NCBI RefSeq assembly: GCF_022965805.1
Contig: NW_027331337.1
Location: forward strand, 294,202-358,201
From: Primulina eburnea
Taxonomy: Eukaryota > Streptophyta > Magnoliopsida > Lamiales > Gesneriaceae
DNA: 64,000 nt
Direction of reading: 5' to 3'
Made by a program: the position numbers and the translations under genes. Under the pieces are notes generated by a model. It was not told where the DNA came from. It did not search any database and worked only from the letters and a program-made list of their open reading frames with translations. How positions within the stretch are numbered: position 1 is the first letter of the stretch; every line of letters starts with the position of its first letter. Positions 7,254 to 63,561 of the stretch are shown here, piece after piece.

Positions 7254-7499
7254 GTTTATATATACTCCACTTGCATGTATAAGAAACGTGGCTCATTCTT
7301 GCCAAATCTCGCTGGCGCTCGGGCGGTCGAAACTTACCGCCCGGGCGCGGACCGCCCGGGTGCGGAAAGTTCTGCCCGCGATGTTTGGTTCTGGCGCTCG
7401 GGCGGTCATAAATTACCGCCCGGGCGCCACACTTTCTGCCCGAACATAATTGTATTGAGCATTGGCGCTCGGGCGGTCACTTTCTACCGCTCGGGCGCC
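7254..7499 (-). promoter_or_regulatory. Inner palindrome cluster and TATA-like run of the gypsy-A LTR
   Basis: Three hairpin-forming units start at 7314, 7393 and 7464. Each is GGCGCTCGGGCGGT, a loop of about 8 nt, then ACCGCCCGGGCGCC or a near match. In element orientation they lie upstream of a TATATATA run at 7254-7266. The arrangement suggests a core promoter with an upstream binding-site array. The function is inferred. Confidence 0.6.
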
Positions 7500-8256: not shown

Positions 8257-8583
8257 AATGATATACATATATATATATATATACTCCATGTTGCATGTCT
8301 AAAGAAACGTGGCACGTTCCACAATTCTTATGTGGCGCTCGAGCGGTCATAATCTACCGCTCGGGCGCCGAGCATTCTGTCCGAAATTAATCCTGCTACA
8401 CACTGGCGCTCGAGCGGTCAAAAACTACCGCTCGGGCGCCAGACTTTCTGCCCAAGCCTTATATTCTCATCCCTTTGGCGCTCGGGCGGTAAATCCTTAC
8501 CGCTCGGGCGCGGAGGATTCTGTCCATCTACCTTTTTATCATACATTGGTGCTCGGGCGGTAGCTTTCTGCCGCTCGGGCGCC
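8257..8583 (-). promoter_or_regulatory. Outer palindrome cluster and TATA run of the gypsy-A LTR (duplicate)
   Basis: Four units start at 8334, 8405, 8477 and 8548, with arms GGCGCTCGRGCGGT and ACCGCTCGGGCGCC, spaced about 70 bp. A (TA)n run at 8264-8284 lies downstream in element orientation. This is the second copy of the promoter-proximal module created by the 1.05-kb duplication in this LTR. Confidence 0.6.
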
Positions 8584-15650: not shown

Positions 15651-17079
15651 TGTAGTGACCCGTTCCAGAATCACCTACTAAGCAAGAACTAAGCATGCAA
15701 TTAACCTAATTAACAATAATCAGAGATAACAGCGGAAAAGTCAACAAAATAATGGTTATACAACCCAATCGAAGTCTAGAATAACTCAAAATAAAATATC
15801 CAATACAACCATATCGAATCAAAACAATACCGATAAACTAAACCAACCAGCTACTCAACGTCCTCCTCCTGCTCCTCCTGAGCTGTCCAACCTGAGGCCT
15901 GCCCCGAGGGAATGGGGTGTCCAAGAATAAACAAAACCGAGGACGTGAGCGATAAGAACGCCCAGTACAAAAGTATGAGTATACAGACCTATATGAAATG
16001 CACATGCTATGATCATGATACCGGGGTAGTCAAGAAACAGGAGTCACAAAAGGATCTCAACAATGCTCAGTCTAGAGGCGCCAAGTGGATAGTGCCGCGC
16101 GGTCCAACCTCTGGGTCACTGCATCCACTACAAGACAGACGTGGACCTAAAATGTCCCGGACCACCGAAGCCCTCCCGACCCGTCGGCCACTGTGTACTC
16201 TCGGTGTCCATGCGTCCACAAGACAGGGCTGAGCGGCCCCAAGATATAGCTTATCTCGAAAGAGATACAGCTCAACAGTAAAGGCTATCTCAAAGGAGAA
16301 TACGGCTCAACATGAAATGCAACGTGCAGTAATAAACGTGACATAATAGCATGCATCATATGACATATATCAATGCACCACATAATCATGCAACACATAT
16401 AAGAATGTATACTCAACCAGGATATCTCGGATAGTACTTTCGTACCTCTATCACAGCAATCCTAATCCACTGGAACAACCAGACAACAGGTCTAATCCAA
16501 GCCTATTCATCAAATGAAAACCATCACTAAACTTATCTACCAGACTTAACTAGATAATCCTGAGATAAATACTGATAAAATTCCAAACCTTCGTCCGTCG
16601 CTAGCCCGCTGATGCCGCTAGCTCCCAACTAGAGCACAGCTCTGCTACAAGACCAGCAGCTCCCCGCTAGTGCCCAAATCTCGGAACAAGACTAGAACCT
16701 GTCAGAAACGACTGAAATGCTACGGAATTCTCTGAATTGGCGAGACAAAATGAGGAAATCCGACCACTATTTATAGGCCATGTTCGGATCGTCCGAACCC
16801 TCTTCGGAACGTCCGAACTCTTACGTGTCCATCGGCTCTTGACAGCTCATGATCGGATCCTCCGATCATACACTTCGGACCGTCCGAACATGCACGTGTC
16901 TAGCTGCTCTTGACACCTCATGATCGGATCCACCTAACCCACTTCGGACCTTCCGAACTCTTCGGTGCTTCCGAACCATCTTCGGTCCGTCCGATCATGA
17001 CTCGGTCAAAATTACACATAAAACCTTCTTAATCACCATTAATCCGTTAATTACCCAATTCGGCATTCGGGCTACTACA
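15651..17079 (-). repeat. 3' LTR of the Gag-only element
   Basis: On the minus strand it starts TGTAGTAGCCCGAATG (17079) and ends ACGGGTCACTACA (15651). A TATA box (CTATAAATA, minus strand, 16767-16777) lies next to a palindrome cluster at 16782-16994. The 106-codon ORF on the plus strand at 15912-16232 is present unchanged in the other LTR simply because the LTRs are near identical, and it runs antisense to the element; I do not call it a gene. Confidence 0.93.
16767..16994 (-). promoter_or_regulatory. TTCGGANNGTCCGAA palindrome cluster and TATA box (3' LTR of Gag-only element)
   Basis: Seven fairly clear palindromic sites lie at 16782-16798, 16803-16817, 16851-16867, 16874-16888, 16943-16957, 16961-16975 and 16981-16994. 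They are variants of TTCGGANNGTCCGAA or GATCGGATCCTCCGATC, with a degenerate one near 16922. In element orientation they lie just upstream of TATA at 16767-16777. The same block is at 19423-19650 in the 5' LTR, where it would drive the element's transcription. Confidence 0.65.
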
Positions 17080-18306: not shown

Positions 18307-19735
18307 TGTAGTGACCCGTTCCAGAATCACCTACTAAGCAAGAACTAAGCATGCAATTATCCTAATTAACAATAATCAGAGATAACAGCGGAAAAGTCAA
18401 CAAAATAATGGTTATACAACCCAATCGAAGTCTAGAATAACTCAAAATAAAATATCCAATACAACCATATCGAATCAAAACAATACCGATAAACTAAACC
18501 AACCAGCTACTCAACGTCCTCCTCCTGCTCCTCCTGAGCTGTCCAACCTGAGGCCTGCCCCGAGGGAATGGGGTGTCCAAGAATAAACAAAACCGAGGAC
18601 GTGAGCGATAAGAACGCCCAGTACAAAAGTATGAGTATACAGACCTATATGAAATGCACATGCTATGATCATGATACCGGGGTAGTCAAGAAACAGGAGT
18701 CACAAAAGGATCTCAACAATGCTCAGTCTAGAGGCGCCAAGTGGATAGTGCCGCGCGGTCCAACCTCTGGGTCACTGCATCCACTACAAGACAGACGTGG
18801 ACCTAAAATGTCCCGGACCACCGAAGCCCTCCCGACCCGTCGGCCACTGTGTACTCTCGGTGTCCATGCGTCCACAAGACAGGGCTGAGCGGCCCCAAGA
18901 TATAGCTTATCTCGAAAGAGATACAGCTCAACAGTAAAGGCTATCTCAAAGGAGAATACGGCTCAACATGAAATGCAACGTGCAGTAATAAACGTGACAT
19001 AATAGCATGCATCATATGACATATATCAATGCACCACATAATCATGCAACACATATAAGAATGTATACTCAACCAGGATATCTCGGATAGTACTTTCGTA
19101 CCTCTATCACAGCAATCCTAATCCACTGGAACAACCAGACAACAGGTCTAATCCAAGCCTATTCATCAAGTGAAAACCATCACTAAACTTATCTACCAGA
19201 CTTAACTAGATAATCCTGAGATAAATACTGATAAAATTCCAAACCTTCGTCCGTCGCTAGCCCGCTGATGCCGCTAGCTCCCAACTAGAGCACAGCTCTG
19301 CTACAAGACCAGCAGCTCCCCGCTAGTGCCCAAATCTCGGAACAAGACTAGAACCTGTCAGAAACGACTGAAATGCTACGGAATTCTCTGAATTGGCGAG
19401 TCAAAATGAGGAAATCCGACCACTATTTATAGGCCATGTTCGGATCGTCCGAACCCTCTTCGGAACGTCCGAACTCTTACGTGTCCATCGGCTCTTGACA
19501 GCTCATGATCGGATCCTCCGATCATACACTTCGGACCGTCCGAACATGCACGTGTCTAGCTGCTCTTGACACCTCATGATCGGATCCACCTAACCCACTT
19601 CGGACCTTCCGAACTCTTCGGTGCTTCCGAACCATCTTCGGTCCGTCCGATCATGACTCGGTCAAAATTACACATAAAACCTTCTTAATCACCATTAATC
19701 CGTTAATTACCCAATTCGGCATTCGGGCTACTACA
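18307..19735 (-). repeat. 5' LTR of the Gag-only element
   Basis: It is near identical to the copy at 15651-17079; the differences I found by eye include A/T at about 18360, A/G near 19170 and A/T near 19401. The palindrome cluster and TATA box (19423-19650) are intact, so this is the likely active promoter for gag. The LTR is separated from the primer site by 4 bp. Confidence 0.93.
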
Positions 19736-19740
19736 GATAT

Positions 19741-24077: not shown

Positions 24078-24078
24078 T

Positions 24079-24091
24079 GCAAGTGGGAGAT
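24079..24091 (+). other. copia-1 polypurine tract
   Basis: The purine-rich stretch CAAGTGGGAGAT directly abuts the 3' LTR and would prime plus-strand DNA synthesis. It is the same in copia-2 (complement at 40459-40471). Confidence 0.85.
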
Positions 24092-26246
24092 TGTTAGAGT
24101 AGGTGCCCGTCGAGCCAAGTGTTGGCCGAGTGTTCACAATGAAACTCTATGTATAAGCAATCTTTGTTTTATTAATATTTGAAATTATTACTTTGGCACA
24201 TCTTTATCTGTATACCCATGCTAGTTGCATAGATAAAGCCCTTGAATATACAAATAGTAGAAAAAATATGAGATGCTCATATGATGAGTATCATGAAACT
24301 CATATTTGTAATACTGTATATTCTAAACGGTTCCTAGTCGATTCAGCCGCCACTAAGAAGGATATAGGCCGCTCGAGTTAGAGACTAGTATCTGCGATGT
24401 GAGTACCATGTTTCATTGGTAGGGGACATTGTGATGTCCGAACATGCAGATAGGTGCTCCTTGTAGAGTGCACTGAACAACCCTCCATAAAAGGACTTTC
24501 CAAGTGGTTCTCACTTATCGAGTGGAAAAGTCCTGGTTTATGGTGGTACAGAATTAGTCCTTATGACCCGGGACAACATTGAGACTCTATGTGCTAGAAT
24601 TACACTTTGACTTGTTTACCGACTCTCATGGGGTCATCAGGTGGCAAGGTTGGGTGTTCTGTCGAAACACATAGGAGTCGATGCATTGTAGTCGGGGATT
24701 CACCGCTTACCTTCGGGTATGGATATCCTATGTGTTATCATGTTTATGTAGGTTGAAATCTCTGGCCAGAGTATGGTTGTAATTATAAAAGGGGTTTCAT
24801 AGATTACACCATTGATGCAACTACAACATGACACATAGTATCGATTCATGGACAACTCTCGATAAACCAATGGTTGTCGAATCGATCGGGATATATGAGT
24901 TGAAGGGACCGTACTGTACGCTAACCATAATTGAATGGTTCTTGCAGGGACTATCATTTGATACCTAGGAATTCATGTAAGCGATGCTGCTAGGCGTTTA
25001 ACATGATTGGTTGGGTACTATCAGACTTGAGTTCTGACGTTCTTGTTATCAAGGTGTTGATAAGTAAGAATGGAGCAATTGGGGTATGCTCATATAAGAA
25101 CATGTTTAGTCCGAATCACATAGAGATGTGAACCCACGGCTAGTCGTATCAATGAACCATTGAGGGCCACACAAGTACTAGCTTTCTAGATCCCGTTGAG
25201 AAGTAAAATAGTTCAATGTGTTAAACGGCTTATAAAGGAGTTTATAAGCATAAAGAAAATTAGAAGTATGACTTCTATAAAGGAGAAAATAGTTCAATGT
25301 GTTGAACGACTTATAAATGAGTTTATAAGTGCAAATAAAAATAGAAGTATGACTTCTATGAGAGAAATGTAAATTTTGATTTATGGAAGTGTTCCTAAAA
25401 TTAAAATTTGGCCAAGTGAATAATGTATTTGAAAATTGTGATTTTCATAAACATTATTATGGACTAAATTAAATTAATTCAAGTGTTGAATTAATTAGAC
25501 ACTAGTGGACCTAGTAAAGTCCAAATAATTAAATTAATTCAAGTATTGAATTAATTAAATAATATTGAGTCTTGTAGAGCTCAATTAAAATAATTATTTA
25601 ACTAGTGGGACTTGGGTAAATTCAAGTAATGTTTAAATAGTCTCAAATATGTTTCAGATAATTAAATTTAGTCCAAAGTTTTTAATTTGATTAAAAACTA
25701 TATTATATGCATGCATGGGAGGTGAAGGGTTGGAGATTACTTTTTATTAAAATAATGCAAGGCATGCACCTTTTGCTTTTTGCTTTTCTCACAACCAAGA
25801 CAAGAAAATTAACTCATTCTCCTTCCCCTCCAACATGAGATGGCCGAAACTCTCTTGAAAATTCTCTCCATTTTTCTTCATTTTCTTGTTCTTCAATTTG
25901 TTAAGGAACACTACACTTCTCTTTGAAAAATCCTCATAGTTTTCTAGTGCAAATTAAGAGGTGATCTACCTAGTTGGTGGTGGGCCGAATTTGAAGGAAA
26001 GATTCAAGGACTTGGAGGAGGAGCTTGTAGATCTTCATGCCTTGAAGAGCTTTGTTGTTTGACAACAAAGTTGGAGCCACAATCAATCTTTTAAAGATTG
26101 ATAGGTAAAAAAAATTCTAAAACACCCTATGAATGTGTTTTTATTGTAAATATTGCACAATACTATGGTGGCCGAAAATTTTCCTCAAAAAATTCGATTT
26201 TTGTGCTTCCGTTGCGCTTCCGGCCACCGTAACCGGTCCGCTTTCA
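24092..26246 (+). repeat. 3' LTR of copia-1 (2155 bp, subfamily B)
   Basis: It matches the 5' LTR over its whole length, including the 81-bp tandem duplication (about 25205 and 25286). It ends GGTCCGCTTTCA at 26246 and is followed by the target duplication AAATA, after which the satellite array resumes. Confidence 0.94.
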
Positions 26247-29200: not shown

Positions 29201-32200
29201 AGCACGCAAAAGTGTTCCCAAAGTTCTATTGACCACTTCAGTTTGTCCATCCGTTTGAGGATGACAAGCAGTAGAAAACAACAATTTTGTGCCAAGTTTA
29301 TCCCATAATGTCTTCCGAAAGTAACTCAAGAATTTAACATCGCGACCAGAAACAATAGTTCTAGGCAAGCCATGCAACCTAACGACTTCGCTAAAGAACA
29401 AATCCGCATTGTTCGAAGCATCATCGGTTTTATGACAAGCTATAAAATGTGCCATCTTTGAGAATCTATCCACAACAACAAAAATAGAATCCCTCCCCTT
29501 CTTAGTCCTAGGCAGTCTCAAAATAAAGTCCATAGAAATGTCAATCCAATTTCTTTTTAAGAATAGCACGCAAAACTGTTCCCTAAGTTCTATTGACAAC
29601 TTCAGTTTGTCCATCCGTTTGAGGATGACAAGTAGTAGAAAACAACAATTTTGTGCCAAGTTTAGCCCATAAAGTCTTCCAAAATTAACTCAAGAATTTA
29701 ACATCGCGACCAGAAACAATAGTCCTAGGCATGTCATGCAACCTAGCGACTTCTCTAAAGAACAAATCCGCAATGTTTGAAGCATCATCGGTTTTATGAC
29801 AAGCTATAAAATGTGTCATCTTAGAGAATCTATCCACAACAACAAAAATAGAATCCCTCCCATTCTTAGTCCTAGGCAACCCCAAAATAAAGTCCATAGA
29901 AATTTAAATCCAAGTTCTTCTTAAGAATAGCACGCAAAAGTGTTCCCAAAGTTCTATTGACAACTTCAGTTTGTCCATCCGTTTGAGGATGACAAGTAGT
30001 AGAAAACAACAATTTTGTGCCTAGTTTAGCCCATAAAGTCTTCCAAAAGTAAATCAAGAATTTAACTTCGCGACCAGAAACAATAGTCCTAGGCATGCAA
30101 TGCAACCTAGCGACTTCTCTAAAGAACAAATCCGCAATGTTTGAAGCATCATCGGGTTTATGACAAGCTATATAATTTGCCATCTTAGCGAATCTATCCA
30201 CAACAACAAAAATAGAATCTCTTCCCTTCTTAGTCCTAGGCAACCCCAAAATATAGTCCTTATAAATGTCAATCCAAGTTCTTTTTAAGAATAGCACGCA
30301 AAAGTGTTCCCAAAGTTCTATTGACAACTTCAGTTTGTCCATCCGTTTGAGGATGACAAGTAGTAGAAAACAACAATTTTGTGCCAAGTTTAGCCCATAA
30401 AGTCTTCCAAAATTAACTCAAGAATTTAACATCGTGACCAGAAACAATAGTCCTAGGCATGCCATGCAACCTAACGACTTCTCTAAAGAACAAATCCGCA
30501 ATGTTTGAAGCATCATCGGTTTTATGACAAGCTATAAAATGTGCCATCTTAGAGAATCTATCCACAACAACAAAAATAGAATCTCTCCCCTTCTTAGTCC
30601 TAGGCAACCCCAAAATAAAGTCCATAGAAATGTCAATCCAAGTTCTATTTAAGAATAGCACGCAAAAGTGTTCCCAAAGTTCTATTGACAACTTCAGTTT
30701 GTCCATCCGTTTAAGGATGACAAGTAGTAGAAAACAACAATTTTGTGCCAAGTTTAGCCCATAAAGTCTTCCAAAATTAACTCAAGAATTTAACATCGCG
30801 ACCAGAAACAATAGTCCTAGGCATGCCATGCAACCTAACGACTTCTCTAAAGAACAAATCCGCAATGTTTGAAGCATCATCGGTTTTATGACAAGCTATA
30901 AAATGTGCCATCTTAGAGAATCTATCCACAACAACAAAAATAGAATCCCTCCCCTTCTTAGTCCTAGGCAACCCCGAAATAAAGTCCATACAAATGTCAA
31001 TCCAAGTTCTATTTAAGAATAGCACGCAAAAGTGTTCCCAAAATTCTATTGACCACTTCAGTTTGTCCATCCGTTTGAGGATGACAAGTAGTAGAAAACA
31101 ACAATTTTATGCCAAGTTTATCCCATAATGTCTTCCGAAAGTAACTCAAGAATTTAATATCGCGACCAGAAACAATAGTTCTAGGCAAGCCATGCAACCT
31201 AACGATTTCGGTAAAGAACAAATCCGCAATGTTTGAAGCATCATCGGTTTTATGACAAGCTATAAAATGTGCCATCTTTGAGAATCTATCCACATCAACA
31301 AAAATAGAATCCCTCCCCTTCTTAGTCCTAGGCAACCTCAAAATAAAGTCCATAAAAATGTCAATCCAATTTCTTTTTAAAAATAGCACGCAAAACTGTT
31401 CCCAAAGTTCTATTGACAACTTCAGTTTGTCCATCCGTTTGAGGATGACAAGTAGTAGAAAACAACAATTTTGTGCCAAGTTTAGCCCATAAAGTCTTCC
31501 AAAATTAACTCAAGAATTTAACATCGCGACCAGAAACAATAGTCCTAGGCATGTCATGCAACCTAACGACTTCTCTAAAGAACAAATCCGCAATGTTTGA
31601 AGCATCATCGGTTTTATGACAAGCTATAAAATGTGTCATCTTAGAGAATCTATCCACAACAACAAAAATACAATCCCTCCCATTCTTAGTCCTAGGCAAC
31701 TCCAAAATAAAGTCCATAGAAATGTAAATCCAAGTTCTTCTTAAGAATAGCACGCAAAAGTGTTCCCAAAGTTCTATTGACAACTTCAGTTTGTCCATCC
31801 GTTTGAGGATGACAAGTAGTAGAAAACAACAATTTTGTGCCTAGTTTAGCCCATAAAGTCTTCCAAAAGTAAATCAAGAATTTAACATCGCGACCAGAAA
31901 CAATAGTCCTAGGCATGCAATGCAACCTAGCGACTTCTCTAAAGAACAAATCCGCAATGTTTGAAGCATCATCGGTTTATGACAAGCTATATAATTTGCC
32001 ATCTTAGAGAATCTATCCACAACAACAAAAATAGAATCTCTTCCCTTCTTAGTCCTAGGCAACCCCAAAATATAGTCCTTATAAATGTCAATCCAAGTTC
32101 TTTTTAAGAATAGCACGCAAAAGTGTTCCTAAAGTTCTATTGACAACTTCAGTTTGTCCATCCGTTTGAGGATGACAAGTAGTAGAAAACAACAAATTTG

Positions 32201-32285
32201 TGCCAAGTTTAGCCCATAAAGTATTCCAAAAGTAACTCAAGAATTTAACATCGCGACCAGAAACAATAGTCGTAGGCATGTCATG
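26247..32285 (-). repeat. Integrase-core satellite array, right block (about 16.6 units; 5-unit higher-order repeat)
   Basis: These are the same 364-bp units as at 8730-12836, here arranged in a larger period of 1819-1820 bp, that is five units. Diagnostic variants repeat at that step: CCCTAAGTTC at 27762 and 29581, unit-specific changes [13 protein letters not shown] near 26620, 28439 and 30258, and KRNWIDI near 27740, 29559 and 31379. Adjacent units inside a period differ far more than units one period apart. The block ends at 32285, where LTR D1 begins, with flank TCATG. All units read as integrase core on the minus strand with a frame shift at each junction. Confidence 0.92.
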
Positions 32286-33817
32286 TGTGGGGACCCGGAC
32301 GCTGATCTTTCTTCTTACTGATCTTTGGGATTTAATTATCAATTCAGATAAACAGGGTCTAAAAATTTTCTTTTTAAAATGTCACGGCGGAAGGTAATGG
32401 AATCTACATAATATACATCTTTGTACAAAACTACAATTCAGTATAAAAGTACAATTCTGTACAACCTAAGTCTAAGGTTCAAATACTAAATTTCTAGTAT
32501 TTAGAATTAATCTACAATAAGTCCGGAATCACCACACTAACTTGTCTTCTCTCATCATCATCTCGACCCTGATCCAGCCCCACCTGTTGTCATGCACACA
32601 TACAAAACAAGACAACAGCCGGATAATTCCGGTGAGAATAAATCCCAGTATAAATCAACGAAACATGCAATCATATAAAAAAATATAAAGCATGTAATCA
32701 GGTAACCGATATATGTATCAAAGTCTGAAACATAATCAATATCAATCTGTCGACATAATTCTACAATTCAGACTAGACTCAATCCTGGTCTAGGGATCCC
32801 GGTTTCCAGATGTGGTATTCCTATATCGAATTCCGTAATAGAAGGAACCGTATTCCTATTACTCGATATAACCAATATCCTGGTATTCCTATATCGAATT
32901 CCGTAATAGACGAATTCCCATTTCCTATTACTCGATATAACCAAACATCCGGTGTCCTGACCTATCCGTCATGGACTGTAGTTCGATCTGTAATATCCTA
33001 TCTTGAGACATCGTGCAATGTGCCCGTGGCGATTCCACCACTATCAGGCACTTCTGTCACAAGATAAATCGTCTAATACCTGTCATCTAAAATCAAGAGA
33101 CAAGTATATCATCAATTTAATGCAAATATCAATGCAATAAAGTAAAGTATGTGATTTAGGGAAACTCAAGTCCAGACCGACTCAAGTCCATCTCCCAATA
33201 CCACATTGACTTATACCTTTGTCTTCTCCGTCTGACTAAGACGATGATCTGTCCATATCAAATCTGAAATGACAATAACAAATACACTGTATCAATGTGT
33301 AACTCAATTCAAAATCTGTTCTGATCAATACTCCACTCAGTATATAATCTGATCAATATCTGAACAAGATACAATTTGATTCATAACAACAATATCACGA
33401 TATAATCGTAATCATAACTGAATCTGATCAATCTGAATCAACTGATGTTTCAACGGCACAATAACACAGTCTTGTCACCCCGTCAATCTCAACATCACAG
33501 ATATCATTTCTAAATGCGTTATCAATACCATATCATCATTCTTCTAATTCTAGTATGTCAATATCTATTGAATTCAACTCAAGATCTGTTGAAATTCATA
33601 ACACAGACATACAGTATAATTTCTTCGATCTGACTTCACATATATACTGAATAGTCTATTCAGAACATATCAGAATAATCAACTCTCTATTCTTGAATCA
33701 AGAACAATACAATTCCAGTGTTTAATCTCAGATAATATCTTCTGAAATTCATAACAATTGTATAAACAGTCTGTTCTTAAATCTGAATTCGATTATACAA
33801 TACCTACTGTAGCAGAA
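32286..33817 (-). repeat. LTR D1: truncated Tekay-type LTR
   Basis: It starts TGTGGGGACCCGGACG (complement of the LTR 3' end) and is related to the gypsy-C, D2 and E LTRs. Gypsy-B cuts it at 33817, so its U3 and promoter are missing. It contains a hairpin at 32584-32618 and, just after the TAGGGATCCCGG landmark, a 68-bp tandem duplication (from 32815 and 32883) with internal inverted arms TATATCGA and TCGATATA. No internal coding region is attached. It could be a solo LTR or the edge of a larger element. Confidence 0.82.
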
Positions 33818-33955: not shown

Positions 33956-34238
33956 GACCGCACCCGCGGTCTGGCAAGCACCGCACCCGCGGTGCAATTA
34001 GCAGAAATTTGTAACATTCCCGTACCCACACCGCACCCGCGGTAGAACTAGACCGCACCCGCGGTGCTGAGACCGCACCCGCGGTAGTTACATGACCGCA
34101 CCCGCGGTCATCACTTGTGAAAAATAAAAGTTCTGCCGAAGTCACAGCGCACCCGCGCTCCGAAGGGCACCGCACCCGCGGTCATGCGTGGCTTATAAAG
34201 AATGAGCCATATGTTCAAACCATGCAACATATATATAG
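33956..34238 (+). promoter_or_regulatory. ACCGCACCCGCGGT palindrome cluster and TATA box, gypsy-B 5' LTR
   Basis: Eight sites lie at 33956-33971, 33980-33993, 34030-34043, 34051-34065, 34071-34085, 34094-34109, 34146-34159 (variant AGCGCACCCGCGCT, with both arms changed together) and 34169-34182. The TATA-like ACATATATATAG follows about 45 bp downstream. The variant that alters both arms keeps the symmetry, which argues that the palindrome itself matters. Confidence 0.68.
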
Positions 34239-35067
34239 AATTGTCTCGATTCTTTCTTCATTTTCAGCAGAAGGGGTCGAGAATTCCAAGGAGAGAAACT
34301 TCATTTCTTAGACTCTGTAATTGTGCTTTTGTAAGATTTACTCATCCAAATTTAAATCCGACTGCAGTTTTGAGGTCCTCTCGTTACTAGCTACAAAGTG
34401 ATGTAAGTTTTATGTAATTTCAACAGGTTTTGAAATTCAGATGTTTAGGAAATTAGAATATGATAGTTATATTGTGTTCTTGACGTATTGAGCATGATAT
34501 ATTCGTAAACGGATCAAAGAAATGATATCATATGTATTTCCTATGGATTTCAGTATGATTTATGAATTATTGGGATAGAATTATTGTGTTTTGGATGAAT
34601 ATTGTATTGGATTATGATTGAGAATAAGATAGTGTTGATATCTGTTGAGAATTTGATTGACCGGTATCGAGAATTACGTTGTTATGCCGTCGAAATGTAT
34701 TGAGATCACGTAGTGACTTGGATATATGTTGGTTTAGATGAGAAATTGATAGAGTGCGTATCAACATTTACATTTCAGATTCAATTTGACGACCGTGACA
34801 GCGATTCTACGACGAAAGGTATAGTACATGTTTTGTTTGGGGAATCACGACTCAAATAAGATCACATTTGAGTTTCCCAACCAAAATCACATACTTGTTT
34901 TATTGTTCATACCTTGATATGATTATGATTATTATAGATTTTTTTATAGAACTTATATGCAGATCTTGCTATGCTATGTTTACAGATCATGTAGCATTGC
35001 ATTATGCTTGTTTACAGATTGTGTATTAATGCATTAAGATAGGGCAGTCTGGAGATCAGGCAGACTA

Positions 35068-49616: not shown

Positions 49617-50864
49617 TGTAAGGCTCGAAGATTAGTTATCATAATAAGATGGATTTGTTGATAATTAAGATGACTGTAGATGTATTTTATTGGACTAGAA
49701 AAGAAAGGAAAAGGTACAATAAAGATGAGGATCAACCAAAAGAAATGAGGAGAGTCGAAGCTCCCAGCGCACATGCGCGAAGATATGCGCGCACATGCGC
49801 GTGAATTCCATTAGCCTCGGCGCACATGCGCGAGACAATGCGCGCATAGACGCGATGCATCCAGCAGCTATGGCGCACAATGCGCGAGTTTAGTCACGAA
49901 TATGCGCGGTCGGTCCAGAAGCTTGGGCGCATATGCGCGAAAGGAACGGCGCATATGCGCGAGGTGTTGGATTGCCGAGACCGTAGGTCTCGCGCCATGC
50001 GCGAGTGATGCGCGCATATGCGCGAGATGTGTGCGTCAAAAGAGTCTTGAACCATGCAATATATATATAGAGGTGGCACGAATTCTTCTCATTCCAGCCA
50101 GAGTCGACGCTTTCAGAGGAAGGAGATTCTTGTTCTTAGGTTCTCTAAATTATGCTTTGGCAAGATTTAGCAATCCAAATTCCAAATCCGACTGCGGTTT
50201 TAAGCTCCTCACTTATTATCTACAAAGTGATGTAAGTTTTATGTAATTTCAACAAGTTTCGAAATTCAGATGTTTGGGAAATTAGAATATGATAGTTATA
50301 TTGTGTTCTTGATGTATTGAGCATGATATATCGTAAACGGATCGAAGAACGGATGTCATATGCAATTGTTACAATTTTTATAGCATGTTTAGAACTAAAT
50401 ATGCAGATTTTGGGTACTATGACATGTTTTGGATGAATATTGTATTGGATTATGATTGAGAATAGATAGTGTTGATATCTGTGAGAATTTGATTGACCGG
50501 TATAGAGAATTACGTCGTTATGCCGTCGAAATGTATTGAGATCACGTAGTGACTTGGATATATGTTGGTTTAGATGAGAAATTGATAGAGTGCGTATCAA
50601 CATTTACATTTCAGATTCAATTTGGCGACCGTGACAGCGATTCTACGACGAAAGGTATAGTACATGTTTTGTTTGGGGAATCACGACTCAAATAAGATCA
50701 CATTTAAGTTTCCCAACCAAAATCACATACTTGTTTTATTGTTCATACCTTGATATGATTATGATTATTATAGATTTGTTTATAGAACTTATATGCAGAT
50801 CTTGCTATGCTATGTTTACAGATCATGTAGCATTGCATTATGCTTGTTTACAGATTGTGTATTC
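49617..50864 (+). repeat. 3' LTR of gypsy-B, first part (U3 and start of R)
   Basis: It begins TGTAAGGCTCGAAGATT, unlike the 5' LTR (TGTAATGCCCTAG). The first 500 bp are unrelated to the 5' LTR, while from about 50220 (CTACAAAGTGATG) the two match closely. It is interrupted at 50864 by a solo copia LTR and continues at 61441. Confidence 0.9.
49767..50068 (+). promoter_or_regulatory. GCGCAYATGCGC palindrome cluster and TATA box, gypsy-B 3' LTR
   Basis: About ten sites of the type GCGCACATGCGCG or GCGCATATGCGCG lie between 49767 and 50026, some degenerate (for example near 49843 and 49872). CAATATATATATAGAGG (50058-50074) follows as a TATA box. The position matches the 5' LTR cluster at 33956-34182, but the palindrome sequence is different. 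Confidence 0.65.
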
Positions 50865-52804: not shown

Positions 52805-54618
52805 TGTGGGGACCCGGGCTCTAACTCAATTCTTTTGGGATTTAATTGGATCTTTGTTCGAAAATGTGGGTCAAAAATTTGCTTTTAACATTAATTCAAA
52901 TGTATAGATAAAGCATAACATATCGTTAACTGAAATAAACAACATAATGTACATACATATCTGTCTAGTACAACCATACACTAGTGTTCGAATCTCAAAT
53001 ACAAACATAAGTAGTACAAGGTTCATAAGAAAACACTAGTGATCTGCAATGCCCGAGATCTCCACGCTATCATCATCTCTCATCTAGCTCGTGACCCCGA
53101 TCCTGCCCCACCTGTTTCCATGCACACATACAGACACGACAACAGCCGGATAACTCCGGTGAGAACATATCCCAGTATAAATCATGGATGCATGCAATGT
53201 CATAATCATGTACAATGCATAACATAAATCAAGTAACATGAATATACATCTAAACATGTAGTAGAATACAAATCTGTATTCGACAATTCACATCTTGACT
53301 CGACTCTTTTCTAATCTAGGGATCCTGGTGTGAATAAGACGGTTTGTCACCTACCCAACCACTCTGGGCAACGGTACGTCTTATTCCTAGACTTCGGTCA
53401 ACTCTGTATCGAGGGTCTACACATATAGCAAATCTGCTCCTATGCGTCGATACACCGAAACGTCTAGTTTTGGCAAGTCTGCCAATCTCTCCTATCTTAG
53501 GACTCGAATATAAATCAATAAACAAGGCATTACATAATCAATGTAATAACAATCTAGTATGTGATTTAGGGAAACTCGTATCAAATCTGAATCGAGTTGT
53601 GCAATCCCGTGACCACATGAATTATACCTTTCTTGTCGAATCGTCTGTCGAGATCTCTAATTCAATGTCAAACCTGTCACCTCAAATCTGAAACGGCAAT
53701 GTGTAGACACCCAATATCAATCTCTAACTCAAAGCAACATATATGCCAATCAATAATAAATCTAGGTACAAATCTACGGCATAACAGCGTATTCTCGCAA
53801 TACCGATCAACTCAATCTCAACAAACAATATATACTATAGCCACAACTCATAATATACTCATCAACACAATATAATATGCTCAATTCTTCCAATCAATAT
53901 CAATATATATGCTGGAAATTCGCAAGGCTCGTATACGATGTCCGAAAATCGATCTGATAACAAATATACGATGCTCTATATATCAAGAACATATATTCGC
54001 AACAAAATCATAAGTTCCCCAACATCCACAATCTGAATCATGCTGGAATTATATCAAACTTACGTCACTTTGTAGCCGTCAATGCAAGGAACACAAATCT
54101 TACCTCAGAATTAAAATCGGATAACCGGAAATAGCAAAATCTCAAGTGCAAAGATCAAAAGAATGAAAGCTTCTCCCAAATCCTCTCTCGGTTCTAAGTT
54201 CTGAAATCTGAAGAATGAGATGTCATGCCAAGGTTTATATATCACATGCCATGTGTCAATACGAAATTCAAAGGTGGCAATCTCGCATGCAGACCGCGGG
54301 TGCGGTGTCTCAAGAGCGCGGGTGCGCTATGCTCACGGCGAATTCACCAAAAATTGCAACACTATGACCGCGGGTGCGGTCCTTACATAACCGCGGGTGC
54401 GGTCTCACACCGCGGGGGCGGTCACGCTATCACCGCGGGTGCGGTGTCTGTTCGCACAAAACTCATTTTTTTCTATCTTTACACTGCGGGTGCGGTGATA
54501 TTAATACCGCAGGTGCGGTCTTGTCTCGGCCATGCTTACTCAAACTCACATTTTTCATGTCATGCATAATCCTCTTCAACCCTCACATCGATGACACGGA
54601 TAATTCTCGAGCCTTACA
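52805..54618 (-). repeat. 3' LTR of gypsy-C (1814 bp)
   Basis: On the minus strand it runs from TGTAAGGCTCGAGAATT (54618) to GGGTCCCCACA (52805). It holds the palindrome cluster 54292-54520, the TATA-like run near 54233-54242, and a hairpin-3 counterpart near 53114-53146 that is weaker here (GTTTCC for GTTGCC). Confidence 0.94.
54233..54520 (-). promoter_or_regulatory. ACCGCGGGTGCGGT palindrome cluster and TATA box, gypsy-C 3' LTR
   Basis: Eight sites lie at 54292-54306, 54314-54327 (AGCGCGGGTGCGCT, both arms changed), 54366-54381, 54390-54403, 54408-54422, 54431-54444, about 54482-54495 and about 54506-54519. The TATA-like sequence (54233-54242) lies downstream in element orientation. The 5' LTR has the same cluster at about 60973-61200, next to TATA near 60914-60923. 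Confidence 0.68.
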
Positions 54619-54718
54619 TTTCTCCCCCTCTTAGACAAGAGTTCTTCCTCGAACTCATAACAACTTAATCAATCATAGTAAAGGAAGAAATGACAATAGA
54701 ACTGAAAGAAAACTCACA
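54619..54718 (-). other. gypsy-C 3' untranslated region and polypurine tract
   Basis: On the minus strand GAGTTCGAGGAAGAACTC (about 54638-54655) precedes AAGAGGGGGAGAAA (54619-54632) at the LTR edge. The short inverted repeat keeps its symmetry although its sequence differs from gypsy-B. Confidence 0.85.
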
Positions 54719-57700
54719 TCATACAAATAGCTCGGGATGCCTCTGTCTCATCTCAGACTCTGTCTCCCAAGTTGCTTCCTCGATGCCATTACGATTCCAT
54801 TGAACCTTCACCAGCGGAATAGTCTTGGTTCTAAGCTTCTTTTCCTTCCGATCCAAAATCTGTATCGGTTGCTCGACGTAGCTCAAAGTCTGATCTAACT
54901 CGGCTTCGTCAGGTTGAATGACATGAGAATCATCCGGCATGTATCTGCGCAACATCGATACATGAAAAACATCATGTATACCGGATAGTGAAGGAGGAAG
55001 AGCAAGTCTGTAAGCTCGATCGCCAATCTTCTCAAGAATCTCATACGGACCGACGTATCTAGGAGACAACTTTCCTCGCTTGCCAAATCTGACAACGCCT
55101 CTGAAAGGTGAAATCTTCAAAAATACTCTGTCTCCCTGTTCGAATACTAACGGTCTACGTCTAATATTGGCGTACTTCGCTTGCCTATCCTGTGCCGTTT
55201 TCATTCGTTTTTGAATGATCTTCACTTTTTCTGTCATCTTACGAATCATATCAGGCCCTAACTCTGGTACCTCAGAAATATCATCCCAGTACAACGGAGA
55301 TCTGCACTTCTTTCCGTATAAAGCTTCGAACGATGCCATCTCAATGCTAGTCTGATAGCTGTTGTTGTATGAAAACTCACACAACGGCAATGAATCTTGC
55401 CAACTAGTACCAAAGTCTAGTACTACAGCTCTCAGCATATCCTCTAAAGTCTGGATAGTCCGTTCTGACTGTCCGTCTGTCTGGGGATGATAAGCAGTGC
55501 TCAGGTGTAAAGTCGTACCCAAAGCCTGCTGCAAGCTGTGCCAAAAGTGAGAAGTGAATCGTGGATCTCGATCTGATACTATCGACTTCGGCACACCATG
55601 CAATCTGACGACCTCTCTGACATACAACGCTGCCATCTGATCATGTCGATAAGTCATCCTGTACGGAATAAAGCACGCTGATTTGGTCAGTCTGTCTATC
55701 ACAACCCAAATCGCGTCACAGCCCCGCGAAGATCGAGGTAACTTCGTCACGAAGTCCATGGAAATGTGGTCCCATTTCCATTCAGGAACAGACAAACTCT
55801 GAAGTAAACCTCCGGGCTTCTTTCTCTCTGCCTTCACCTGCTGGCAATTCAGGCACTTAGACACAAATTCTGCAATGTCTGTCTTCATCTGCTTCCACCA
55901 GAATTGTGTCTTCAAGTCATTGTACATCTTCCTGCCACCAGGATGAATGCTGAACCGACTACAGTGTGCTTCCGACATGATCTGTCGTCTCAAATCTGAA
56001 ATCTCTGGCACCACTAAGCGGTTATTCACATACAGAACAGAATCTCTGACCTGATATTCTGATATATGACCAGCTCTGACCATATCAATCGATCTCTGCA
56101 CGCTCGGATCAGTTCTTTGTGCTTCTTTGATCCTCGAAATCAAGTCTGGCTCAATCTGAATCGCAGCAAGTCGCAACGGTCTACTCTCTGTATTAAATGT
56201 CAATCCAGACAAGCAACAATCTTCTACTAAACTCGATACACCTACAGTCGACAAGGACAAAGAACATACCTTTCGACTCAAGGCGTCTGCCGCTGCATTC
56301 GACTTTCCTGGATGGTACTTGATCTCGCAATCAAAATCTTTCAGCAGATCAAGCCATCGTCGCTGCCTCATATTCAACTCTGACTGAGAAAAGAGATATT
56401 TCAGGCTCTTGTGATCGGAATAGATCTCAAATTTCTCGCCATACAGATAATGACGTCAGATCTTCAAAGCAAAGACAATCGCCGCCAATTCAAGATCATG
56501 AATCGGGTAACGAGTCTCGTGCGGTTTCAGCTGTCTAGAGGCGTACGCTATCACGTGCCCTTGCTGCATAAGAACACATCCAAGCCCTCTGTGAGATGCA
56601 TCACAATATACAACGAACTCACCTGTACCTGATGGAATCGTCAAGACAGGCGCACTAGTCAGCCTCTTCTTCAGCTCAACAAAACTGGCTTCACAATCTT
56701 CGGACCACACAAATGGCATATTCTTCTGTGTCAACTGGGTAATCGGCTTCGCTATACTGGAGAAGTCTCGAATAAAACGTCGATAATACCGGGCTAGACC
56801 CATGAAACTGCGTATCTCAGGCACAGAAGTCGGTCTCGGCTAACTGATCACAGCCTCAACTTTACTCGGATCTACCGCAATACCATCTCCAGATATAATA
56901 TGTCCCAAAAAGACAACCTGTCGCAACCAGAATTCACACTTGGACAGTTTAGCATACAACTGCTCCTGTCGCAAAGTCTTCAGCACAATTCTCAGATGAT
57001 CTGCATGCTCAGTCAAACTCTTCGAATACACCAAAATATCATCAATAAACACAATCACAAAATCATCTAAATATCTCTGAAAAATGCGGTTCATCAAACT
57101 CATAAACACCGCAGGTGCATTCGTCAAACCGAAAGGCATAACAACAAACTCGTAGTGTCCATACCTGGTTCGGAATGCAGTCTTCGAAATATCAACATCT
57201 CTAACTCTAAGTTGATGATACCCTGATCTCAAATCAATCTTCGAATATACCGAAGATCCCTGTAACTGGTCAAATAAGTCGTCGATGCGAGGCAACGGAT
57301 ACTTATTCTTCACGGTCGCCTTGTTCAACTGCCTATAATCAATACACAGTCGCATCGAACCATCTTTCTTTCTAACAAAAAGCACCGGAGCACCCCAAGG
57401 TGATACACTGGGTCTGATATATCCCTTGGACAGAAGATCCTCCAACTGTGCTTTCAACTCTTTCAGCTCTATCGGTGCCATCCTATATGGAGCTCTCGAA
57501 ATAGGAACAGAACCCGGCATAAGATCTATGCTGAAATCAACCTCTCGAATCGGAGGTAATCCTGGAATCTCATCAGGAAAAACATCTGCAAACTCGCAAA
57601 CCACTGGCAGATCTGCCAATGCTGGGCTCGACTTCAGTAGATCTACTGAATATACGAGAAAGCCCTCTGCTCCTCTCTGAAGCAATCTACTCATAGTCAG

Positions 57701-59239
57701 AACAGATACTAAGGGAATCCGAGATCTGGAACCCTTGCCGTAAAATTTCCATTCATCTATCAGTTCAGGTCTGAATCTGACAATCTTGTGGAAACAATCT
57801 ACCGTGGCTCTGTACTTGGTCAACATGTCAATACCAACTATACAGTCAAAATCAGCTAAACCAAGTACTACACAATCAAGATCAATCTCATGCCCCTCAA
57901 ACTGAAGCATACAGTGTCTAACAGTAGTCACAGATATCAAACCACTTCCCAACGGAGAAGCTATAGACACTACTGTCGACATCGACTCAACAGGCAATGA
58001 ATGTCTCAATGCAAAATGTTCAGATATGAATGTATGAGATGCCCCTGTGTCTATCAACACATATGCAGGATAACCGCAAAGAAAACAGTTACCTGCAATG
58101 ACGTCATCTGGCGCCTCCTGCGCCTGCTCCTCTGTCAGGGCAAAAACACGTGCCTGCTGTCGGGGAGGCTGACTCACCGTCTGACTACCTCCTGGCCTCT
58201 GCTGTGTCTGTGTGGAGGGTGGCTGAAAGGAGTGTACCGAAGATGCCTGTCTCTCCATCTGTGGCGCTGGTGCTGATGATCCTGTACTCTGGAATCGTGA
58301 TGCACCTCTCTGGGGACAAACTCTGGCAAAGTGTCCCTGTTGCCTACAGATGTTGCAGCGTCCCAGAACTCCTTGACACTGCTCCGTCGCATGTCGCCCT
58401 CCGCATGAACCACAGTATGCACCACTATAATCTGACCCCTGACCTCTCTGTCGAGATCCACCCGAACTCGAGGAACTGCTCCCGGATTTCTTAAATTGTT
58501 TGCCTTTAGCCTTTAGAAATTCCTTTTTACCACTACCACTAGCAACGCTGTCAAAACGAGGAGGAGGTGGTGGAAACTGTACGGTAGTAGGCTGTGGCGG
58601 TCTCTGCCCCTGAACACCGTAGGAAGCTCCTCGCTGCCTGATCAAGCCAGCCTCTGCTCCCTTTGCTCGGTTCAGTGCCTCCGAAAAAGTACTAGGACGG
58701 CCCGTGTTCACCAAAGTAAAGACATCGGGATTCAGTCCGTTGATGAACTGATCGGCCACTGCCTCGTCATTTCCGGCCACATGCGGTGCAAATCGTAACA
58801 ACGCAGAAAATTTAGCAACATACTCCTCGATGTTCCACTGTCCCTGCTTCAGATTCGCAAATTCAGCTCCCTTATCTTTCCGGTAGGAAACGGGAAAGAA
58901 GCGCTGATAGAACTCATCTTTGAAGACTTTCCACGTGATATCAATGCCTCGGTGCTCCAAGGCTCTCTTCGTAGTCAACCACCAGCTCTTTGCAACCTCT
59001 TGCATCTGATGCCCTATCAGCTTCACACGTCGTTCGTCAGTGTAAGCCAAGGACTCGAATAACATCTCAATATCATCAAGCCAGCTCTCGCACTCTACTG
59101 CACTCTCTGTGCCTTTCAGAGTAGGCGGATGGAAAGACTGGAATCTTTTCAATAAAGTCTCCATCGGCGTAGCGGTAACATCCATCTGTGCACCTGATGT
59201 GCTACCCTGATCTGGCTGTGGCACTCGTCTAGGCGGCAT
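54719..59239 (-). pseudogene. gag-pol: gypsy-C Gag-Pol polyprotein (1506 codons plus stop, two internal stop codons)
   Basis: One uninterrupted frame encodes every step of the replication cycle: particle, polyprotein cleavage, DNA synthesis and integration. I place the start at the ATG at 59237-59239 ([13 protein letters not shown]) by analogy with gypsy-A and gypsy-B; the frame is open upstream into the leader. Gag spans about residues 20-200. Knuckles [13 protein letters not shown] and [14 protein letters not shown] lie near 275-307. Protease has [10 protein letters not shown], Asp 397. RT has FIDD with Asp 733-734. RNase H starts about 830 ([12 protein letters not shown]). The integrase zinc region is followed by core residues Asp 1162, Asp 1223 and Glu 1259, a D,D35E spacing. 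The chromodomain ends the protein ([16 protein letters not shown]). Codons 800 (TAG) and 928 (TGA) replace expected Trp codons. Otherwise it is full length. Confidence 0.95.
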
Positions 59240-59496
59240 AAATCTGATCATAAAACTGATTAGTACATAATCAATGTCATCTGTCTCAGCCCTCCTCTGA
59301 TCATAACCTCTGATCGAGAATCGGTTCTGATTCAGGCTTGAAATGCTGTAAATCAATTCAGATAATACAACACAACATATAATAGGGAAAGCAATAAAGC
59401 ATGCTAGCATCTCAAAAGCAAGGAAGATGACTCGATCTACCCCGCTCATTCTATTCTATCTCAGTCTACAGAACCTACTGCTCTGATACCATCTGT
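59240..59496 (-). other. gypsy-C leader and primer-binding site
   Basis: TGGTATCAGAG on the minus strand (59481-59491) lies 5 bp inside the LTR. The leader matches gypsy-A and gypsy-B. The 70 open codons upstream of the Gag ATG vary between copies and are probably untranslated. Confidence 0.85.
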
Positions 59497-61299
59497 TGTG
59501 GGGACCCGGGCTCTAACTCAATTCTTTTGGGATTTAATTGGATCTTTGTTCGAAAATGTGGGTCAAAAATTTGCTTTTAACATTAATTCAAATGCATAAC
59601 ATATCGTTAACTGAAATAAACAACATAATGTACATACATATCTGTCTAGTACAACCATACACTAGTGTTCGAATCTCAAATACAAACATAAGTAGTACAA
59701 GGTTCATAAGAAAACACTAGTGATCTGCAATGCCCGAGATCTCCACGCTATCATCATCTCTCATCTAGCTCGTGACCCCGATCCTGCCCCACCTGTTGCC
59801 ATGCACACATACAGACACGACAACAGCCGGATAACTCCGGTGAGAACATATCCCAGTATAAATCATGGATGCATGCAATGTCATAATCATGTACAATGCA
59901 TAACATAAATCAAGTAACATGAATATACATCTAAACATGTAGTAGAATACAAATCTGTATTCGACAATTCACATCTTGACTCGACTCTTTTCTAATCTAG
60001 GGATCCCGGTGTGAATAAGACGGTTTGTCACCTACCCAACCACTCGGGGCAACGGTACGTCTTATTCCTAGACTTCGGTCAACTCTGTATCGAGGGTCTA
60101 CACATATAGCAAATCTGCTCCTATGCGTCGATACACCGAAACGTCTAGTTTTGGCAAGTCTGCCAATCTCTCCTATCTCAGGACTCGAATATAAATCAAT
60201 AAACAAGGCATTACATAATCAATGTAATAACAATCTAGTATGTGATTTAGGGAAACTCGTATCAAATCTGAATCGAGTTGTGCAATCCCGTGACCACATG
60301 AATTATACCTTTCTTGTCGAATCGTCTGTCGAGATCTCTAATTCAATGTCAAACCTGTCACCTCAAATCTGAAACGGCAATGTGTAGACACCCAATATCA
60401 ATCTCTAACTCAAAGCAACATATGTGCCAATCAATAATAAATCTCGGTACAAATCTACGGCATAACAGCGTATTCTCGCAATACCGATCAACTCAATCTC
60501 AACAAACAATATATACTATAGCCACAACTCATAATATACTCATCAACACAATATAATATGCTCAATTCTTCCAATCAATATCAATATATATGCTGGAAAT
60601 TCGCAAGGCTCGTATACGATGTCCGAAAATCGATCTGATAACAAATATACGATGCTCTATATATCAAGAACATATATTCGCAACAAAATCATAAGTTCCC
60701 CAACATCCACAATCTGAATCATGCTGGAATTATATCAAACTTACGTCACATTGTAGCCGTCAATGCAAGGAACACAAATCTTACCTCAGAATTAAAATCG
60801 GATAACCGGAAATAGCAAAATCTCAAGAGCAAAGATCAAAAGAATGAAAGCTTCTCCCAAATCCTCTCTCGGTTCTAAGTTCTGAAATCTGAAGAATGAG
60901 ATGTCATGCCAAGGTTTATATATCACATGCCATGTGTCAATACGAAATTCAAAGGTGGCAATCTCGCATGTAGACCGCGGGTGCGGTGTCTCAAGAGCGC
61001 GGGTGCGCTATGCTCACGGCGAATTCACCAAAAATTGCAACACTATGACCGCGGGTGCGGTCCTTACATAACCGCGGGTGCGGTCTCACGCCACGGGGGC
61101 GGTCACGCTATCACCGCGGGTGCGGTGTCTGTTCGCACAAAACTCATTTTTTTCTATCTTTACACCGCGGGTGCGGTGATATTAATACCGCAGGTGCGGT
61201 CTTGTCTCGGCCATGCTTACTCAAACTCACATTTTTCATGTCATGCATAATCCTCTTCAACCCTCACATCGATGACACGGATAATTCTCGAGCCTTACA
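59497..61299 (-). repeat. 5' LTR of gypsy-C (1803 bp)
   Basis: It is near identical to 52805-54618. It carries the palindrome cluster (about 60973-61200), a TATA-like run (60914-60923) and a hairpin-3 counterpart (59793-59800 with 59819-59826). It ends at the target duplication TTTTC (61300-61304). Confidence 0.94.
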
Positions 61300-61304
61300 T
61301 TTTC

Positions 61305-62127: not shown

Positions 62128-63561
62128 ACAAGTATGCAGTTCTAATCAAATCATGTCTAAACTTGACTCGATCTATAACTCTATGGATCCCGGTGTGAAT
62201 AAGACGTCACTATCTGTCACCTACCCTACCAATCGAGGTGCTGTACGTCTTATTCCTAGACTTCGGCCTGATCTGTATCCGCATCTACAAAGGGGCGGTG
62301 ATCTTCCCCTAAGCTGAGATATCGCCGAACGTCTAGCAGTCTCGCTGATCTCCAAACTGTCCTATCTTAAATGCATGAATACAAAATCTGTAAACAAGCA
62401 TGATCATCTTAATGCAATGCAACATGATCTGTACACAAAGCATAATAAGATAAAACATAAACAAGAATATAGTATGTGATTTATTGGGCAACTCAAGGAT
62501 GGTCTCGATTGAGTTGTTTCTTCTCGAATATCACATGAATTATACCTTTGTCGTCCCGGTCTGACGAAGATGATGATCTGTATTCAACTCTGTCCATATC
62601 AATCTGAAAAGACAATATCGAATACGCTGTATCAGTAAATAACTCAATTCACTATCTGTTCTGATCAATATTCAAATCAGTATACAATCTGATCAATGTC
62701 TGAACAAAATACAATCTGAGTCATATCAATAATATCACAATCTAATCGAACTCATATCTGAATCTGATCAATCTAATTCAACTGATGTTTCGATGGCATA
62801 ACACTACAATCTGAATAACCCCGTCAATCTGAACATCACAGTATAGTACTGGAACTAAAAATCTGATATATCGGTATATTCAAAATCAGTAATACACAAT
62901 TCTGATATCAAAATCCCAGTCAATATCTTTCAAAAATCATAACAATTACAGAAATAGTCTGTTCTTTAATCTGGCTTCAGTTCTACAATATCTACGGTAG
63001 TAGAAATACCATATCTGAATCACATGCAATTCTAGTAACATCATACTTTCAAAACATCTCAAAACGTAACAAAACTTACGTCCTTGTGTAGCTCGTGTTG
63101 CGAGGAGCTCGATACTGCTTCCGAATTCAAATTCTGATACACGGATTCTTCGTAATCGGATTCTAAGTTCACGAAGTAAAGTTCTCTCCCCAATCTCTTG
63201 ATTTCCCTCTGCAAAACTGAAGAAAACCGAGCTCTACACGTATATATATCTTGCATGCAAAGCAAAACGTGGTTTCATTTTCCAAGCAACACGCATGACC
63301 GCGGGTGCGGTCATGACATGCACCGCGGGTGCGGTAGTACAATGTCTATCCTAGCATTTCTCGAAGCTTGACCGCGGCTGCGCTGTCTACAATACCGCAG
63401 GTGCGGTGTCACAGCGCGGGTGCGCTCTATCTAATACCGCAGGTGCGGTGTGGCTACGGGTTTTTGCACTACATTTTCTGCACACGCACCGCGGGGGCGG
63501 TCGTGCTAGCACCGCGGTTGCAGTCGTGCAAACTTCTAATTTCAAATTTTCTGATCATGCC
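62128..63561 (-). repeat. LTR D2: truncated Tekay-type LTR
   Basis: It starts in mid-LTR at the gypsy-B edge and is related to D1, but clearly a different copy (roughly 80% similar where they overlap). Hairpin 2 is present (GAATAAGACGT near 62197 with ACGTCTTATTC near 62243). It keeps its promoter region: palindromes 63297-63524 and a TATA run near 63239-63250. It is cut by LTR E at 63562. Gypsy-B does not enter D1 and D2 at matching positions. Confidence 0.82.
63238..63524 (-). promoter_or_regulatory. ACCGCGGGTGCGGT palindrome cluster and TATA box, LTR D2
   Basis: Eight sites lie at 63297-63312, 63322-63335, 63371-63384, 63394-63407, 63413-63426 (AGCGCGGGTGCGCT), 63436-63449, 63488-63501 and 63511-63524. 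In LTR orientation the TATATATA run (63239-63250) lies downstream. The motif is the same as in gypsy-C and the gypsy-B 5' LTR. Confidence 0.66.

Follow-up and report, generated by a model that had tools for sequence, protein, structure and literature searches.

Among the described systems with which the promoter arrays reported here can be compared, Tnt1 is a Ty1/copia element and the VANDAL elements are DNA transposons. As far as the available excerpts of the literature describe them, Sireviruses, which are likewise Ty1/copia, carry family-specific palindromes in many copies, the RM boxes, which form CpG islands upstream of the TATA box of their LTRs, and these RMs have been called Sirevirus-specific (Bousios 2010, PMC2829016). 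Sirevirus palindromes have also been reported as small-RNA hotspots (excerpts of PMC5311732 and PMC10760457). In Tnt1 and Retrolyc1 the U3 region evolves as a module: the coding parts are shared while the U3 regulatory module differs, which has been read as adaptation or escape (PMC1838419, in excerpts). For Del/Tekay LTRs the excerpted text describes eudicot Del as being without a CpG island (Cruz 2014, PMC4029996). The VANC anti-silencing proteins of VANDAL, according to excerpts of PMC5735166, recognise targets that are short, often tandemly repeated and different between related elements.

The window, that is the whole stretch of 64,000 nucleotides of Primulina eburnea DNA that was analysed, contains arrays of palindromic boxes in the LTRs of Ty3 elements (Table 1). 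These elements presumably belong to the Del/Tekay lineage. The original prediction had placed clusters of palindromes directly upstream of TATA, and such clusters are present at 33957-34182 and at the other coordinates it had named (7314-7499, 8334-8583, 49767-50026 and 16782-16994). The boxes are dyad-symmetric, about 14 bp long and type-specific, and contain 2 to 3 CpGs depending on the type, of which four main ones (ACC, GCG, A and TTC) can be distinguished. ACC and A boxes have the half-site ACCGC in common, which indicates that the box types are not wholly unrelated. The array of LTR C consists of seven exact copies of ACCGCACCCGCGGT and one AGCGCACCCGCGCT (34146-34159); the latter is only a few bases away from the GCGCACATGCGC kind of box, so that ACC and GCG boxes could conceivably be converted into one another in single steps. 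The TATATATA of LTR C starts at 34230, with 54 bp from the last box centre to TATA, and the nearest TATA-like hexamer recorded for this array by a de novo scan is TATAAA, which lies closer than TATATATA.

Table 1. Positions of Ty3 elements, box arrays and promoter parts within the window.
Feature	Position	Strand	Remarks
Type A array	7314..7499	-	7 boxes, most of them in inverted pairs with 22 bp spacing; TATA near 7264
Type A array	8334..8583	-	8 boxes; gaps 22, 49, 22, 50, 22, 49, 22; TATA near 8283
Gag-only Ty3 element, TTC-type array	15651-19735		LTRs 99.8% identical over 1,429 bp
TTC-type array (TTCGGANNNTCCGAA), LTR of Gag-only element	16783..16995	-	8 boxes; last centre 14 bp from TATA
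TTC-type array, other LTR of Gag-only element	19439..19651	-	
ACC-type array, LTR C	33957..34182	+	8 boxes, all in one orientation; start-to-start gaps 23, 50, 22, 20, 23, 51, 23
Core-promoter stretch, LTR C	34183..34237	+	From last box to TATATATA; resembles related LTRs across box types
TATA and downstream part, LTR C	34218..35027	+	88% identity to 50050-50863; upstream arrays unlike
GCG-type array (GCGCAYATGCGC), LTR B3	49767..50024	+	TATA about 35 bp past last box
Ty3 element D, intact, chromovirus-like	52805..61302	-	98.7% identity between its LTRs (1,817 aligned positions)
ACC-type array, 3' LTR of element D	54293..54519	-	
ACC-type array, 5' LTR of element D	60974..61200	-	
ACC-type array, LTR E	63298..63524	-	Downstream part closest to type A LTR A2 among the LTRs compared

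Element D encodes gag, protease, RT, RNase H and integrase. Its profile matches comprise Retrotrans_gag, Ty3_capsid, RVP_2, RVT_1, RT_RNaseH, Integrase_H2C2 and a Tf2-1-like SH3; the zinc-binding and SH3 parts of the integrase score above the curated cut-off and its core below, and the chromodomain PF00385 (E 2.5e-4, 21.3 bits) also falls below its curated value of 25.1. On both strands of the interior of element D, no ORF of at least 150 aa is listed besides gag-pol. Among 120 of the 6,580 relatives of a 578-aa RNase H-integrase protein, the named sources are eudicot plants and none exceeds 60% identity. The window further contains two inverted copies of one element, presumably copia (19736-26246 and 44838-38302, 94% identical over 6.5 kb), which sit in and around the Ty3 elements. 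A tandem repeat of 364 bp forms two arrays (8772-12765 and 26189-32365; 28 copies listed, mostly at least 90% identical) that are crossed by 11 ORFs of 166-291 aa. Its copies are 44-52% identical to the integrase core of element D, and the satellite seems to be derived from an integrase domain.

Compared with the RMs of Sireviruses, the arrays have in common that palindromic boxes occur in many copies upstream of TATA, here in the LTRs of Ty3 elements (18 of the 20 LTRs sampled below without regard to boxes), and the TTC box TTCGGACCGTCCGAA has the HOPIE motif CGGACCGTCCG at its core (PMC2829016, in excerpts). Our original implication that no system of this kind had been described is therefore withdrawn. 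The CGG-CCG core signature of Sirevirus RMs is present in TTC (CGGA...TCCG), occurs in reverse order in ACC and in neither form in GCG. The host of the boxes differs as well, being Ty3 and not Ty1/copia by the domains of element D, and the doublet spacing, the fixed companion and the cassette exchange that we describe below are absent from the description in the excerpts of PMC2829016. With Tnt1 and Retrolyc1 the elements share the combination of similar coding parts with a differing U3 regulatory module, but the excerpted text of PMC1838419 describes no fixed spacing frame and the string 'palindrom' occurs 0 times in its main text. A further difference is seen to the Del/Tekay description, since boxes are dense here although the named protein relatives are from eudicots; the word 'palindromic' occurs 0 times in PMC4029996.

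Genome-wide, the exact word ACCGCACCCGCGGT is found at 52,056 sites (26,459 + 25,597) of the 812 Mb assembly and the reversed word at none. The corresponding numbers are 46,571 for GCGCATATGCGC (reversed control 8), 15,369 for GGCGCTCGGGCGGT (reversed control 0) and 4,128 for the TTC box TTCGGACCGTCCGAA (reversed control 0). A de novo scan, in which a cluster was defined by at least three boxes with identical inner arm inside 600 bp, returned nine clusters in the window, all nine with a TATA-like hexamer at most 56 bp element-downstream. On chromosome C1 the same scan was applied to 20 stretches of 10 kb at even distances. Nine of them contained clusters, 14 in total, and a single round of Markov-1 shuffling of these stretches yielded none; a TATA-like hexamer was present within 50 bp on one side for seven of the 14 and absent there for the other seven. 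The palindrome arrays are real, occur genome-wide, have a strongly regular architecture and are mobile in their box identity. A fifth box type (CACGGACCC / GGGTCCGTG) forms clusters at L022:1763-1994 and L026:9450-9680; in L026 it repeats every 73-74 bp, close to the repeat unit of 70-75 bp seen in the main types. Among 100 listed TTC sites on C1, many are paired at distances of about 2.7 or 6.1 kb and others form runs about 1.8 kb apart, suggesting short and long partner elements.

An LTR sample that ignored the boxes was obtained with the exact 18-base PPT/LTR junction from the window, which occurs 7,297 times in the genome (control 0): every fifth of the first 100 listed junction sites yielded 20 Ty3 3' LTRs. 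Eighteen of these carry an array (7 ACC, 7 GCG and 4 A). We had originally predicted clusters in every such LTR, which proved too general, because L082 and L085 have the same PPT junction and no box array; they possibly represent a sister family in which the cassette was lost or had never been present. A de novo cluster is present in 16 of the 20 LTRs, and 0 were found in 20 shuffle rounds. Behind the array, a TATA could be recognised in 17 of the 18 array LTRs but not in the remaining one. The centre of the last box lies 53-59 bp upstream of TATA in 14 of the 17 measured LTRs, across ACC, GCG and A, the outliers (143, 144 and 308 bp) being counted as misses.

Most boxes are arranged in doublets, with 22-24 bp within the doublet for ACC, GCG and A. 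The boxes of one ACC array all have the same orientation; their doublets are spaced by 22-24 bp, mostly 23, and are mostly 49-53 bp apart from each other, and in larger arrays the central gap is shorter (17-23 or 31 bp). Type A doublets have a spacing of 22 bp and 41-50 bp between doublets, and in both type A arrays of the window the members of a doublet face in opposite directions. What had been described as one gypsy-A palindrome is thus present as a cluster but corresponds better to a pair of inverted boxes with a spacing of 22 bp. For GCG the values are 22-23 bp within and 31, 40-43 or 48-54 bp between doublets, and for TTC spacings of 18-22 and 48-49 bp are found. The gaps between doublets show helical phasing (10.5 bp) for GCG (R 0.83, p 0.003), a weaker one for ACC (p 0.026) and none for A (p 0.36); with all gaps pooled, a period of about 14 bp describes ACC and TTC better than one of 10.5 bp does.

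A companion motif, C[AC]G[AT]A, was searched for within the 16 bases preceding the initial box of the following doublet in L079-L118 and 12 other LTRs. For each box type it was found at one single offset among all hits, namely at -10 in 14 of 29 cases for ACC and 13 of 16 for A, and at -11 in 30 of 51 for GCG, with shuffle means of 0.7, 0.3 and 1.1, respectively. Since the GCG box is defined one base shorter, the geometry equals that of ACC and A. The box-blind LTRs alone have the companion at the same offsets (ACC 7/14, A 9/10, GCG 11/22). No CAGAA was present in the linkers of TTC arrays (0/21), and these arrays mostly lie nearer to TATA (14 bp); TTC is therefore treated as a parallel case. 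As judged from the sequences, the frame of doublets, TATA distance and companion is common to the three distinct box types ACC, GCG and A.

The LTRs C and B3 share 88% identity in the part that begins shortly upstream of TATA, and have unlike arrays. In 11 LTRs, taken from 20 compared pieces after TTC pieces, near-duplicates and some further ones had been set aside, downstream similarity is independent of the box type (mean z 28.5 for 17 same-type pairs and 27.3 for 38 different-type pairs, p 0.61). For the 18 box-blind array LTRs, same-type pairs are more alike downstream (median z 31.4 in 48 pairs versus 13.0 in 105 different-type pairs, p 9.5e-6; for this and the other tests, all copies stem from one genome and are mutually related, so that the p-values are not based on independent units), which indicates that box type and backbone are in part inherited together, with repeated switches of type. 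A tree of 28 downstream regions requires eight changes of box type, the minimum possible being two; shuffled labels gave 12.8 changes on average and never as few as eight in 200 shuffles. Well-supported branches alone require at least three changes each for ACC and GCG and two for A. The box type is accordingly clustered in the tree but not of single origin.

Several pairs of different type resemble each other before and after the array but not in it: L094 (A) and L098 (GCG) reach z values of 14.7 before, 53.9 after and 0.1 in the array, L080 (A) and L091 (GCG) of 14.2, 55.5 and 0.4, and L084 (GCG) and L089 (ACC) of 13.0, 37.1 and 0.4. A further 20 stretches (13 + 7; L099-L118) were picked by similarity to C and do not form an unbiased sample; 13 of them came from a genome search with the R region of LTR C. 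This region is 95-97% like that of C over 95-99 bases in L099-L102 (type A) and L103 (ACC), or 94-96% over about 285 bases in the genome search, and 85-89% like it in L104 and L108 (ACC) and in L105-L107 and L109-L111 (GCG). The stretch from the last box to TATA is 81-93% like that of C over 44-55 bases in the 13 LTRs L099-L111, and this places the exchange border near the TATA-side edge of the array. The converse is seen in L112-L118, all seven of which keep 93-95% of the array of C over about 285 bp, whereas the 100 bases from just past TATA are only 74-83% (local) like C. L100 combines its type A array with an ACC-like doublet (two boxes with 12/14 matches each at a distance of 23 bp) and is possibly a mixed or transitional array.

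These comparisons show that the arrays are exchanged as cassettes between LTR backbones. Boxes could conceivably also have been converted in place from ACC to GCG, step by step via AGCGCACCCGCGCT, but block exchange is the simpler explanation of the data. Together with the tree, the comparisons agree with the original prediction that type-specific dyad-symmetric boxes just upstream of TATA are swapped in their identity between related LTRs.

We propose that the array is a composite upstream enhancer of the Ty3 (chromovirus-type) LTR, which is the best explanation of the observations as a whole and in our judgement somewhat probable. Each box would bind a dimer of a host transcription factor, and the doublets, about two helical turns apart, would allow for cooperative binding. 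The companion, which often lies about one turn before the first box of a doublet, may bind a constant partner; the centre of the last box, as the sequences show, is usually positioned about 55 bp upstream of TATA. Cassettes presumably move by template switching between co-packaged RNAs, and a change of box type would then bring the element under the control of another host factor. The boxes are more likely to be read by a host factor, because element D shows only gag-pol and no further listed ORF of at least 150 aa. For one conceivable reader, a LOB-domain factor, the term was absent from the open-licence PMC papers listed in a search.

A more far-reaching reading, which we regard as tentative, assumes a promoter socket with exchangeable plugs: one Ty3 lineage would have a rigid enhancer frame of companion, doublet and TATA distance, into which distinct dyad cassettes are repeatedly swapped, each bringing the sites for another member of a diversifying host family of dimeric DNA-binding proteins, in the course of an arms race.

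It is unlikely, in our view, that the boxes mainly constitute a CpG-dense island, in which the effect would be based on chromatin, by attracting or resisting methylation or by binding of a methyl-CpG reader, and the exact sequence would be secondary. Each box type does contribute two to three CpGs, array LTRs contain 37-60 CpGs in 834 bp in comparison to 24 and 34 in the two LTRs without arrays (counted as CpG dinucleotides), and monocot Del LTRs are described with variable 5' CpG islands (PMC4029996, in excerpts). However, conservation is also strong at positions outside the CpGs and in the ACCC centre of ACC boxes, and spacing and companion demand more than CpG content.

The palindromes could alternatively be RNA hairpins in the element transcripts, which have U3 at their 3' end, and either be targeted by host small RNAs or serve as decoys for them, as has been proposed for the Sireviruses of maize. 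The arms are able to pair, and Sirevirus palindrome clusters are small-RNA hotspots in the excerpts of PMC5311732 and PMC10760457. The original prediction had pointed to variants with both arms changed together; single-arm changes are in fact far commoner, with 99 single versus 19 paired changes in 217 distinct ACC boxes, 71 versus 1 in 181 GCG boxes and 140 versus 9 in 157 TTC boxes, where the selection of boxes (ACC 11/14, GCG 9/12 and TTC 9/12 matches) limits the changes per counted box. Eighteen of the 19 paired ACC changes concern pair 2 and belong to the possibly inherited AGCGC...GCGCT variant; outside this pair 56 single changes face one paired change. Measured against the criterion set with the original prediction, its claim of paired changes does not hold. 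This preponderance favours sites for a dimeric protein over hairpins. For G-U pairs and flanks, ACC boxes were oriented by their centre, and the GCG and TTC figures also come from oriented boxes. No excess of G-U over A-C was present among the single changes of ACC (33 v 22, p 0.18) or GCG (20 v 20). In TTC, by contrast, changes that keep G-U exceed those to A-C (11 v 2, p 0.02), a weak counter-signal to the dimer reading. Selection for RNA hairpins is thus unsupported for ACC and GCG by single versus paired changes and by G-U versus A-C, with a weak signal for TTC; hairpins would also leave the TATA distance, the doublet spacing and the companion unexplained, and we consider them quite improbable as the basis of the arrays. 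Targeting by the host needs no selection for pairing, so that small RNAs could still map to the arrays.

The flanks bear on the dimer reading as well. The base preferences next to the two arms of ACC boxes mirror each other (correlations of 0.92, 0.81 and 0.74 at +/-1, 2 and 3) and show no coupling within copies (z 0.2, -0.8 and -0.3), the pattern that would be left by two identical subunits, each recognising one half-site. Mirror symmetry is weaker for GCG (0.83, 0.68 and 0.21) and mostly absent for TTC (0.23, 0.04 and -0.75), where flank 2 is coupled (z 3.4). The dimeric factor of the original prediction agrees with the arm and ACC flank statistics, but coordinated arm changes are no general rule.

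We disfavour, as very unlikely, a neutral minisatellite in which tandem slippage builds the arrays and the likeness of boxes merely reflects recent duplication. Such an origin would be in line with the shared orientation of ACC boxes in an array and the recurrence of 70-75 bp units, but boxes are 87-95% identical between instances and spacers only 34-56% (gap classes with at least 24 distinct instances; chance about 27%, determined as 0.27 for GCG spacers), and in gap classes with 4-7 instances the identities are 0.94-1.00 and 0.40-0.58, respectively. Furthermore, the 22-23 bp spacing is found in both inverted (A) and direct (ACC) doublets, and the TATA distance is much alike across types. That a protein encoded by the element itself or by another element binds the boxes is highly improbable: the targets of VANC of VANDAL transposons are also often tandem repeats that vary between related elements (PMC5735166, in excerpts), but VANC is an element-encoded binder, and none was found in element D among ORFs of at least 150 aa on either strand.

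Palindromic LTR boxes as such are already known, and what is new here is the Ty3 setting, the type-independent frame with its companion and the exchange of arrays as cassettes, for which no earlier description was found among the open-licence PMC papers listed in the searches. Palindromic boxes in Ty3 elements, one of them with a Sirevirus core, imply convergent or shared use across both LTR superfamilies. As the frame is mostly constant while the box changes, the genome offers natural swap experiments, in which near-identical core promoters are combined with different box types among thousands of copies. If the promoter indeed works as a socket with exchangeable plugs, the success of an element would track which host factor drives or silences it. 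The questions of who reads the LTR boxes and whether box turnover is adaptive thereby become directly testable.
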